Both the position numbers and the translations under genes were made by a program. From positions 1 to 33,851 of the forward strand of contig JALZUE010000221.1 of assembly GCA_023301705.1 (NCBI GenBank): a stretch of 33,851 bases of DNA, read 5' to 3'. Below, piece after piece: positions 2 through 26,401 of the stretch; the first letter of the stretch is position 1, and each line of letters begins with the position of its first letter. The stretch comes from Alteromonadaceae bacterium (GTDB lineage: Bacteria; Pseudomonadota; Gammaproteobacteria; Enterobacterales; Alteromonadaceae). The notes beneath the pieces are model-generated. The model was not told the DNA's origin. It was given only the letters and a program-made list of their open reading frames with translations, and did no database searches.

Positions 2-1000
2 AATGAATTATCTGATGGTTATAAAACCTTTTTAAGCTTAGTGTCACATGAATACTTTCATACGTGGAATGTTTGTCGCATTAAGCCTGAAGAGTTTGTG
101 CCTTATTCATTAAACGATGAAAGCTACACAGAGCAGTTGTGGGCGTTTGAAGGAATTACCTCATATTATGACGACTTTAGCTTGTTTAGAACAGGCATAG
201 TGTCCTTTGAAGACTATTTAATGTTAAAAAGTAAAACCATTAGTCGTGTGAATCGTGGTCATGGTCAATTAAAGCAAAATTTAATTGAATCAAGTTTTTA
301 TACTTGGACAAAGTTTTATCAGCAAGGCCCTGATGCCGCAAACAATATTGTTAGTTATTACACCAAAGGTTCGTTAATCGCTTTATGGTTAGACTTAACT
401 ATTCGTAAAGCCACAAACGCAACTAAGTCATTAGATGATGTTATGCGTGCGCTTTGGGCTGAATATATTAATCAAGGGTCGAATTATAAAGGCACAAAGC
501 TGAATACTATTGTTGATATTGTTAATCAGTTAATTGCTCGAGATATCTCAAATGAATTTTACCAATTATTAACAAGCAAGGAAGTAGTGCCATTAACCAG
601 CTTATTGGCTGATTTTGGCGTTGAACTAAACAATGTTACCTCTTCATGTTCTGCGTTATTGTCAATGAATACAGAAACGCACAGCCCGTATTTAGGCTTT
701 ATGTTTAAAGAGGCGAAGTTAGGCATAGAAGTTGTTCAGGTTTTAGAAGATTCACCTGCTGAAAAGTCAGGCATTAGTGTTCAAGATAATATTATTGCCA
801 TTGATAATATTGTTGTAACTAAGGGTAATTTCTCAGATGTAGTGAATAACCTAAATCCTAATAACAAGTATAATATTGCTTATATTCGTAACGGTGAATT
901 ATTTACTGGTGTTATTCATCTTTCGTTAGCAATTAAAGAATTAACTCACTTGAAAGTTGTTAATAGCGATAAAGTTAACGCATGGACAAAAATCGTTTGA
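2..1000 (+). CDS. M61-family (glycyl aminopeptidase-like) metallopeptidase with PDZ domain, 5' truncated by window edge
   Basis: This is the C-terminal part of a zinc metallopeptidase. The frame is open from the window edge, so the true start lies outside. The GTG at 41 sits inside the conserved LVSHEYFHTWN segment and is not a start. In the visible protein (about 332 residues) HEYFH supplies the two zinc histidines (residues 16 and 20) and the glutamate catalyst. WAFEGITSYY (glutamate near residue 50) supplies the third ligand, in the usual M61 order. A PDZ-like domain lies near residues 225-310 (LGIEVVQVLEDSPAEKSGI, then DNIIAIDNI), as is normal for M61 enzymes. The family releases N-terminal residues from peptides; the substrate here is unknown. 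A perfect hairpin follows the stop. The family call is firm. Confidence 0.9.
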   Translation, partial: NELSDGYKTFLSLVSHEYFHTWNVCRIKPEEFVPYSLNDESYTEQLWAFEGITSYYDDFSLFRTGIVSFEDYLMLKSKTISRVNRGHGQLKQNLIESSFYTWTKFYQQGPDAANNIVSYYTKGSLIALWLDLTIRKATNATKSLDDVMRALWAEYINQGSNYKGTKLNTIVDIVNQLIARDISNEFYQLLTSKEVVPLTSLLADFGVELNNVTSSCSALLSMNTETHSPYLGFMFKEAKLGIEVVQVLEDSPAEKSGISVQDNIIAIDNIVVTKGNFSDVVNNLNPNNKYNIAYIRNGELFTGVIHLSLAIKELTHLKVVNSDKVNAWTKIV

Positions 1001-1146: not shown

Positions 1147-1203
1147 TGTAACAAATTATGAAATTAATGCTTGCTGTCTGCTCTAGATTGGGTAAAGTAT
1201 ATA
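1147..1203 (+). promoter_or_regulatory. Candidate promoter and GacA/UvrY-type upstream element of the CsrB-like RNA
   Basis: TGTAACAAATTATG (1147-1160) resembles the TGTAAG...TTACA boxes bound by GacA/UvrY/VarA upstream of Csr/Rsm RNA genes, though its right half is degenerate. A possible -35 (TTGCTG, 1171-1176) and -10 (TAAAGT, 1193-1198) are 16 bp apart, which would put the RNA start near 1205. All of this is by-eye motif matching. Confidence 0.4.
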
Positions 1204-1204
1204 C

Positions 1205-1550
1205 AGCTACTGAGTAGCGAGATGAATAAGGAAAGAGTTTGCACGGATAGCAAAATATTAAATAACTAATATTATTTAATGCATCTTTTCAGAATATGGA
1301 TGGTTCTCTTACTTCATGGAATGGAAGTGATAATTAAGCCTTTTAGGCATTACGGACTAAAAATAAAGTGTTAGGAAGACCGATTAAAATAAAATTAGCC
1401 ATGGAAGCTACATAATAATAATAGGGTTAGGGTTGTATACAGGGAATGTGTTGAATTTGGTAGGATGCCAATTTAAAAATTAGGAAGTTATCAGTTTATA
1501 TAAACTCATATAACAATATCCGAAAGCGATGGCTATGCCATCGCTTTTTT
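1205..1550 (+). ncRNA. CsrB/CsrC (RsmB)-like CsrA-sequestering small RNA
   Basis: This gene-free stretch of about 346 nt carries 11 GGA triplets (first bases 1230, 1245, 1298, 1318, 1323, 1354, 1374, 1403, 1443, 1463, 1483), several in ACGGA or AGGA contexts. At least five sit in loops of short perfect hairpins: TTTGC/GCAAA around ACGGATA (1238-1254), AGAA/TTCT (1291-1307), ACTTC/GAAGT (1311-1328), TAGC/GCTA around CATGGAA (1396-1410) and TTGG/CCAA around TAGGATG (1457-1471). It ends in a strong intrinsic terminator. GGA in hairpin loops is the known binding signal for CsrA. The length is close to E. coli CsrB (about 369 nt). It lies directly upstream of yihI, the position csrC holds in E. 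coli. The 5' end is inferred from a weak promoter and may shift by tens of bases. I leave the symbol blank because CsrB and CsrC cannot be told apart here. Confidence 0.78.
1523..1550 (+). terminator. Rho-independent terminator of the CsrB-like RNA
   Basis: A perfect 11-bp stem (AAAGCGATGGC with GCCATCGCTTT) has a 3-nt loop TAT and runs straight into a T-tract (1545-1550). It is one of the strongest terminators in the window. No protein gene ends nearby upstream, which itself argues for a non-coding transcript. Confidence 0.9.
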
Positions 1551-23959: not shown

Positions 23960-26401
23960 TTAGTCATCAGTACTTAACGTTTGCAATACCTTAACGTCAA
24001 CCAACTTACTAACTAAGCTTGTTAATGTTTGTAATGTATCGTTCATAATAATAACATCGTCATCACTTTGTTCAATATAATGTAATTTTTTCATTTGGTT
24101 TATTAAACTTGATTGTGCTTTTTTATCAACAAATTCAGGTGCATGAATGTTATTTAAAATAGCTAATCGATTAGCCATTACCACCATTTTACTTTCTAAT
24201 GTTGATTTTGGCATAGGCGCATTATGTTCAATTAGTTGGCTTACTATCACTAAACGTTGAATCGTTGCCTCAATGCACTTACTCATTGTGAATATTCTAG
24301 TATGATTTTCTATGCCATCATGCAATGACCAGAACCCAGCTTTAGAGTGCTTGATTATATGCTGCTCTTCTAAAAAGTGAAGCGTGTTAACAACTTGTTC
24401 TTTAACATCATCATCACTTTGCCATAAGAAAAACTCGTGTTTAATGATAGCGATTAATTGTTGTGTTTGCTCAATTACTAATGAATTGGCAATTTTTTCG
24501 TTTTTATTAAGTAAACGGCAAATAAGCGAAGGTAATATAAAGGCATGTAAAATATTGTTGCGGTAATAACTCATTTCTAATGCTGATGATTTATTTAAAG
24601 AAATAACACTGCCTAACGCATCATCAGTTACGATTACTTTATTTAACGAAATTGCATCATTGATAAGATCTTCACCATTACCTTCAGGCAACGTTAATTC
24701 TTTGTGATAAGGAACGTGTTGTTGAAGTGATAGAAAAAAATCAATTTGCTTAGCTAGTATAGTTTTATCTAGTGCTTTATTTTCATTTGTTAATAATATT
24801 AAAGAAATTAATGATATTCCGTTTAATGCGACGGCATTATTGATGTTTGTCATCACATGTTCACTTAACAAGTTAACTGATGGTGTTAACCATTGCGGTT
24901 TTTGTTGGTCTGAATTATTGATATCTGCTTGCCAATTGGGTACTTCATTGTTTAAAAATTGATTGATATTGATTGGTTCACCAAAATTAACAAAACCCTT
25001 TCCGTAATTACGTAGGTTTTTAATGGCTTTTAATACCCCCCAAATTGACTCAGACTTCTTTTTATTACCACTTAACTCTTTGTGGTATGTCGCAACTTCC
25101 ATAACATGTTCATATCCAATATACACAGGAACAAGGGTTAAAGGACGTTTAACTCCTCGTAACAAACTTTGTACTGTCATAGCAAGCATACCTGTTTTAG
25201 GAGCTAATAAACGACCTGTTCTACTGCGCCCACCCTCAGTGTAATACTTGACGGAATAGCCTCGCTCAAAAAGTAAGCCTAAGTATTCTCTAAAAATAGC
25301 AGAATATAAGCGGTTGCCACCAAAACTACGTCGAATGAAAAAAGCCCCCGCCTTTCTAAAAATAGGCCCAGCAGGCCAAAAGTTTAAATTAATTCCTGCG
25401 GCAATTCTTGGCGTTACTAGACCTTGATTGTAAATAACATACGTTAATAACAAGTAATCCATATGGCTACGGTGGCAAGGAACATAAATGATTTCTTGAC
25501 CATCTTCAGCTAATGCTCTTAAGCGTTCACCATTATTAACAGTAATGCCACTGTATAGCCTGTTCCATAGTTTATTTAATATACGCTCGCCAACTCTTAC
25601 CATTGAAATGCTGTAATCACCTGCAATTTCGTTCATGACATTCAAAGCATTTTTACGAGCTCGAGCTTCAGAGATTTTCTTAATTTTCATTTCTTCAGCG
25701 ATGACTTTTTTAATTGCCGGGTTAGCTAATAATGCTGTAAACATTTGCTGACGATGCATTAAGCGAGGGCCTGAAGCAGCAATAGTTTGACGATAAAAAT
25801 GAAACCTAGTTATACGTAGTAGTTTTCTTGCTATTTGTGCATCAGAGCCGTGTTGGCTTACTAATTCACGTAGTGAAAGTGCATTACTAAAACGTAATAA
25901 TGTATGGCGACCAAAAAAGATTACGGTGAATAATTTATGAAGCCAGCTTGGTGATTGTTGTTCTGAAAAAATAGCGCTAAACGTTGCTGTATTTTTTTCT
26001 TTGGTTGGTTTTCTACCCCAGTTTAAATTAACAGGAATTATTTGAATATCTAAGTTTTCATTTTCATTATGTAATGATAGTAATTCTTTACTTTGTTGTA
26101 AGGCATTGGTGACTGATTTTTTACGCCAATTGAAAATAGGTGTAGATTTTTCTATATAGAGCGTTCGTGAAAATTTTTGACTATTAATTATTACATCGTC
26201 AAGAGGGTCAGGTAACCCTTTCTTTTGACATATATTTTGTAATGTTAAAATATCGCTTGCTGATTCAGTATGAAGAATATAAAAAAGGTGTTTGTTTTCG
26301 TTTTGTACAGGCATTTGTTCAGCAAGTATTGCTTTACAACGAACAAGTAATGTTAAAGGCAGTTTTAATAAAAAGTAGAAAGTAGAACGAAGGAGAGTCA
26401 T
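23960..26401 (-). CDS. plsB: Glycerol-3-phosphate 1-O-acyltransferase PlsB
   Basis: PlsB transfers a fatty acyl group to position 1 of glycerol-3-phosphate, the first step of membrane phospholipid synthesis, at the inner membrane. The 813-residue length and order of motifs match the family: the HRSHMDYLL catalytic box (His310 and Asp315), GPIFRKAGAFFIRRSFGGN, the YYTEGGRSRTGRLL box (386-399, glycerol-3-phosphate binding), and VPVYIGYE. An N-terminal hydrophobic stretch (about 4-20) may help membrane association, and the C-terminal third is a helical domain. The gene is monocistronic on the minus strand, convergent with trpS. Confidence 0.96.
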   Translation of the reverse strand: MTLLRSTFYFLLKLPLTLLVRCKAILAEQMPVQNENKHLFYILHTESASDILTLQNICQKKGLPDPLDDVIINSQKFSRTLYIEKSTPIFNWRKKSVTNALQQSKELLSLHNENENLDIQIIPVNLNWGRKPTKEKNTATFSAIFSEQQSPSWLHKLFTVIFFGRHTLLRFSNALSLRELVSQHGSDAQIARKLLRITRFHFYRQTIAASGPRLMHRQQMFTALLANPAIKKVIAEEMKIKKISEARARKNALNVMNEIAGDYSISMVRVGERILNKLWNRLYSGITVNNGERLRALAEDGQEIIYVPCHRSHMDYLLLTYVIYNQGLVTPRIAAGINLNFWPAGPIFRKAGAFFIRRSFGGNRLYSAIFREYLGLLFERGYSVKYYTEGGRSRTGRLLAPKTGMLAMTVQSLLRGVKRPLTLVPVYIGYEHVMEVATYHKELSGNKKKSESIWGVLKAIKNLRNYGKGFVNFGEPININQFLNNEVPNWQADINNSDQQKPQWLTPSVNLLSEHVMTNINNAVALNGISLISLILLTNENKALDKTILAKQIDFFLSLQQHVPYHKELTLPEGNGEDLINDAISLNKVIVTDDALGSVISLNKSSALEMSYYRNNILHAFILPSLICRLLNKNEKIANSLVIEQTQQLIAIIKHEFFLWQSDDDVKEQVVNTLHFLEEQHIIKHSKAGFWSLHDGIENHTRIFTMSKCIEATIQRLVIVSQLIEHNAPMPKSTLESKMVVMANRLAILNNIHAPEFVDKKAQSSLINQMKKLHYIEQSDDDVIIMNDTLQTLTSLVSKLVDVKVLQTLSTDD

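Follow-up and report, generated by a model that had tools for sequence, protein, structure and literature searches.

The window analyzed here, a 33,851-nt contig stretch of an Alteromonadaceae bacterium, carries a non-coding gene at 1205-1550 (forward strand) that we read, with a probability of about 0.88, as an ortholog of csrC, i.e., a CsrA sponge with its own promoter and terminator whose expression is here probably independent of UvrY. This reading draws on the yihA-RNA-yihI-hemN gene order, the -10 sequence, the UvrY box, GGA hairpins with covarying stems, and sub-threshold matches to the Rfam CsrC model (RF00084), several of them found in relatives, and it sharpens a first-pass annotation, which had proposed a CsrB/CsrC-type RNA upstream of yihI, specifically to CsrC. 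From the sequence we infer that 1205-1550 is transcribed and that its RNA binds and sequesters CsrA.

A GGA-rich non-coding gene upstream of yihI

The upstream neighbor of the RNA gene encodes an M61 glycyl aminopeptidase with a PDZ domain (2-1000, forward strand; PF05299, E = 6e-40), the 5′ end of which lies off the contig. Downstream, and also on the forward strand, are yihI for the Der GTPase activator (1639-2244; PF04220, E = 8.8e-25) and a gene for a DUF2489 protein (2251-2748; PF10675), which lies between yihI and hemN in relatives. As had been stated earlier, there is no credible gene between the M61 gene stop (1000) and yihI, with open reading frames in 1001-1638 of at most 46 aa. The interval instead holds a free-standing, GGA-rich gene of ~346 nt. 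Its sigma-70-type promoter (1170-1198, forward strand) consists of a -35 CTTGCT (1170-1175), a 17-nt spacer, and a -10 TAAAGT (1193-1198), and the arrangement CTTG-N-GTAAAGT is found at the equivalent place in ~30 relatives. The -10 sequence GTAAAGTA is common to the window, the relatives, and E. coli csrC, where it precedes the csrC start. The gene ends in an intrinsic terminator with a T tail (1522-1550, forward strand), for which 11 bp had been claimed and 12 pairs were found (1522-1548; 0.2 expected). Both RNA ends (1205 and 1550) were derived from the promoter and the terminator, the start being placed ~7 nt after the -10. The element had initially been drawn as 1147-1550, of which the end held and the start did not: the start is most likely ~1205, and 1147-1204 is the promoter region. 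Further downstream on the same strand, a TAAAAT at 1603-1608 is probably a separate -10 of yihI, and most relatives retain GTAAAATA past the terminator.

Eleven GGA motifs occur in 1205-1550 (at 1230, 1245, 1298, 1318, 1323, 1354, 1374, 1403, 1443, 1463, and 1483), which is the GGA-densest stretch of the window (window mean 1.4 per 346 nt; minus-strand maximum 6), and this number is modestly above that of dinucleotide shuffles (mean 6.65, p = 0.014). Five of the motifs lie in loops of stems with at least 4 Watson-Crick pairs, compared to 0.83 expected, and none of 100 shuffles reached five; with stems of at least 3 pairs, seven GGA were in loops against 2.74 expected (p = 0.02). The earlier counts (11 GGA, at least five in hairpin loops) were thereby confirmed. 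The global fold of the RNA was without unusual stability (z = -0.87).

Conservation in relatives and RNA model searches

Rfam searches of the window gave no CsrB or CsrC match, neither at the gathering cut-off nor at E = 10. By the rule that the first-pass annotation had set for itself, this formally amounts to a refutation, and for this reason relatives were examined. When 1120-1560 was compared by BLASTN with 197 genomes from its GTDB family, 31 of them gave matches, mostly directly upstream of yihI, and 35 loci shared a recurrent CTTG-N-GTAAAGT promoter, the 5′ hairpin, 7-15 GGA, and the same terminator, with the window RNA ~60% identical to that of relatives. A full-length model (R1) was built from 22 sequences, including the window as a seed; it gives the window RNA, itself a seed sequence, 212.8 bits and detects a single copy in its own genome, with no second match. 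At the order level, R1 matched 26 of 198 genomes, including some genera outside the family. When named genomes were scanned for the most conserved site (GUC-AGGA-GAC) as a pattern, it turned up in Colwellia, Cognaticolwellia, Thalassotalea, Thalassomonas, Pseudoalteromonas, Bowmanella, Aestuariibacter, Neptunicella, and Shewanella gelidimarina, and a minority of the pattern matches, in unrelated bacteria, are due to chance.

The structure tested on the 22-sequence alignment was hand-written and consisted of nine short helices, i.e., the 5′ hairpin, the terminator, and others mostly around GGA motifs. In this structure, 83% of cells were paired and 25 of 41 pairs had compensatory changes; the latter are the better evidence, since the structure was drawn from the same sequences, which favors the percentage paired. 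The covariation score was 0.272, compared to 0.144 in shuffles (none of 500 as high) and at most 0.128 in slid controls. RNAalifold alone found only three helices.

The best-supported helices were the 5′ hairpin, the GUC-AGGA-GAC hairpin, and the terminator, and helix 5 was poor in this alignment. The 5′ hairpin (GCUAC-UGA-GUAGC, 1206-1218) had 95.5% of cells paired, with compensatory changes A-U/G-C and C-G/G-C/U-A/A-U. The most conserved site (1368-1381), GUU-AGGAA-GAC in the window and GUC-AGGA-GAC in the family, had 100% of cells paired in the 22 sequences, and so did the terminator, which also covaried. Among the other GGA hairpins, UUUGC-ACGGAUA-GCAAA (1238-1254; stem of at least 4 bp) had compensatory changes at two pairs, and AGAAU-AUGGAUG-GUUCU (1291-1307) combined a GGAU invariant in the 22 sequences with covariation of the closing pair (U-A/U-G/C-G). 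The hairpin at 1311-1328, UAUC-AGGAU-GAUA in relatives, showed compensatory changes at 4 of 4 family pairs, and that at 1457-1471, UUGG-UAGGAUG-CCAA in the window and GGUU-AGGAU-AACC in relatives, at 4 of 5 pairs. ACA-GGGAA-UGU (1439-1449) was paired in 80% of cells, with compensatory changes, and UAGC-CAUGGAA-GCUA (1396-1410; 4-bp stem) is missing from some relatives. All of these hairpins are on the forward strand. GGA loops are therefore kept in related genomes on covarying stems, as the initial proposal of a CsrB/CsrC-type RNA had anticipated.

In relatives, the RNA is matched by RF00084 below the threshold, with E = 5.5e-4 in Thalassotalea mangrovi, 0.0021 in S. gelidimarina, and 0.032 in another genome of the order. 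These relatives reach 20-26 of 61 bits, short of the gathering cut-off, which is the threshold of a narrow model and has no standing as a biological feature. Conversely, the best match of R1 within 6 kb of E. coli was csrC (E = 0.022). The direct link to E. coli consists of short elements and a weak model match. The CsrB model (RF00018) had no match in the window and matched CsrB of the family at other loci. CsrB-like RNAs were detected in 56 of the 197 family genomes with at most 69 bits, all under the Rfam gathering score of 71, and Rfam annotation therefore misses CsrB throughout the family.

The UvrY box and other Csr components

Most relatives carry a box, TGTAAGACATTGACCATT, ~163 bp upstream of the RNA start. 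Of 64 rows, 50 have it between -151 and -189 (at least 14 of 16 positions; fewer than 0.6% of shuffles reach 13); some genomes account for two rows each, and part of the consensus came from these rows. Independently of this, the box is one base from the inverted repeat of Salmonella csrC (TGTGAGACATTGACCATT) and similar to the E. coli repeat (TGTGAGACATTGCCGATA), which lies at -168. These inverted repeats mark UvrY/SirA sites crosslinked in vivo as determined by ChIP-exo, and DNase I footprinting located UvrY at the upstream csrC site (PMC4682653). At two Pseudoalteromonas loci (L140, L170) and at L124, a locus from the window's family, the upstream box is a near-full palindrome (e.g., TGTGAGATATATCTCACA) at -185, replacing the half-degenerate box of the csrC type.

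In the window, the best score for a csrC-type UvrY box was at chance level, and at one mismatch the box was absent from the genome assembly (80% complete). The generic Gac box TGTAAGN6CTTACA likewise scored at chance level upstream of the RNA; a Gac-type box, which had been called uncertain, is not found in the window. The alignment shows decayed sequence where the box would be in the window, and separate decay of this place in a Thalassotalea group as well as in Colwellia sp. C1TZA3, MB3u-45, and MB02u-6. In Cognaticolwellia mytili, the M61 gene and csrC are separated by a gene that we take, from our own reading of its sequence, to be of the VOC family. Because this gene is also missing from the window, the UvrY box may have been lost or disrupted here through a deletion.

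The RNA is intact in all of these lineages, which suggests that their csrC is expressed independently of UvrY rather than decaying. A related possibility, that the window RNA is a decaying csrC relic replaced by a long CsrB, is unlikely, though the best of the alternatives considered. It would account for the lost UvrY box, for the ~60% identity to relatives, and for the long CsrB of this genome with its 27 GGA, but the promoter, 5′ hairpin, covarying loops, and terminator are all intact, the RNA scores 212.8 bits with the family model, and other lineages without the box also retain an intact RNA.

The separate CsrB gene of this genome (contig C33 of assembly G000, 25382-25930, reverse strand) is ~549 nt long. 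Its Gac box (TGTAAGACATGTCTTACA), at the contig end, is perfect, and inside the gene a 105-bp unit is repeated in tandem (2.5 copies, 96% identical). The Rfam CsrB model gave only weak matches in this genome, on C33 (E = 0.56), which on inspection were pieces of the long CsrB. The repeat would be an expansion of CsrA sites by tandem duplication, and in the wider CsrB locus (L113, C33 23000-26116) an htpG-like frame follows. The CsrA gene is intact (C44), and a UvrY gene is present (C83, 65% identity). A second intact CsrA-like protein (MLVLSRNTHEVITIGDYIEV...) is encoded at C182:6355-6510 on the minus strand, and a CsrA-like fragment lies at C182:3886-3948. The window RNA is one of two predicted sponges in this genome, beside CsrB.

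Mechanistically, the predicted GGA hairpin loops would bind CsrA dimers and keep CsrA off its target mRNAs, such that more RNA would relieve CsrA control. In most relatives, UvrY would switch the RNA on from the site ~163 bp upstream; in this genome, where the site has decayed, the RNA is probably UvrY-independent, and CsrB with its perfect Gac box would carry the UvrY signal.

Synteny and relation to known CsrA antagonists

The gene order in E. coli is yihA-csrC-yihI-hemN, and the place before yihI that had been compared to csrC of E. coli was supported by synteny in relatives. In Aestuariibacter, Neptunicella, and Pseudoalteromonas, the order yihA-RNA-yihI continues with the DUF2489 gene and, in some, hemN. 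In Shewanella-like genomes, yihA and yihI flank the RNA, with ~700 nt of extra sequence before yihI. Colwellia, Cognaticolwellia, and Thalassotalea likewise have the RNA before yihI. In the Colwellia types the order is RNA-yihI-DUF2489-hemN, and the genes preceding the RNA are other ones, in the window as well. The position that characterizes csrC, upstream of yihI and downstream of a divergent yihA, is therefore found for yihI in the window and for yihA in relatives. A csrC-like RNA was also observed at five loci (L127, L129, L130, L132, and L135) in a third family of the order (f21, genus g72); that of L127 has 17 GGA and the box TGTAAGACATTTGCCATT, and yihA and yihI flank the RNA in L127 and L130.

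This synteny, together with the UvrY-type box, also makes it improbable that the RNA is a conserved small RNA of another kind (e.g., base-pairing) in which GGA motifs are incidental. Such an RNA would fit the lack of an Rfam CsrB/CsrC match in the window and the conservation of several unpaired A-rich stretches, but what is conserved is chiefly the GGA loops, which sit on covarying stems and are of the CsrA-site type (AGGA/ANGGA in short hairpins). Still less probable is a cis-acting yihI leader whose terminator is an attenuator controlling read-through into yihI, because although the RNA lies directly upstream of yihI on the same strand and has a strong terminator, a second conserved -10 separates this terminator from yihI, a distance of ~700 nt or more separates the RNA from yihI in Pseudoalteromonas and in Shewanella-like genomes, the consensus has no alternative antiterminator fold, and the multiple GGA hairpins would be left unexplained.

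Read as a csrC ortholog, the RNA resembles CsrC of Escherichia coli and Salmonella (RF00084) in adjoining yihI (or, in the wider group, occupying the yihA-yihI interval), in the -10 sequence, in the UvrY inverted repeat that relatives have ~163-168 bp upstream, in its GGA hairpins, and in a GCGA..TCGC terminator stem, which is GCGAC..GTCGC in E. coli csrC. It differs in its length (~346 nt in the window vs ~245), in being below Rfam detection, and, in the window, in having no UvrY box and an M61 peptidase gene upstream instead of yihA. With CsrB (RF00018), examples of which include Pf1 of Pseudoalteromonas fuliginea (PMC9927453) and CsrB1/B2 of Shewanella oneidensis (PMC3171408), it shares the GGA-rich CsrA sponge type, an intrinsic terminator, and a length of several hundred nt; however, it is a separate gene, and CsrB RNAs have ~20 or more GGA and other neighbors.

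On balance, we slightly favor a broader view in which csrC is a CsrA sponge of ancient origin, has a fixed position across the wider enterobacterial order, was missed outside Enterobacteriaceae because it diverged below model thresholds, and was uncoupled from BarA-UvrY by box loss in several marine lineages including this one, such that a UvrY-driven CsrB and a UvrY-independent CsrC would exist in one genome. The RNA may have been predicted in Colwellia before, in a 2006 paper by Kulkarni et al. on CsrA-regulating RNAs. Overall, synteny, promoter, UvrY site, and structure extend CsrC from enterics to Colwellia, Thalassotalea, Pseudoalteromonas, and Shewanella-like genomes, in which existing RNA models detect CsrB-type RNAs at best, and predict that many marine bacteria have a second CsrA antagonist. 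The most notable aspect is the lineage-specific loss of the UvrY box, which offers a natural experiment, with the same RNA in lineages with and without the box.
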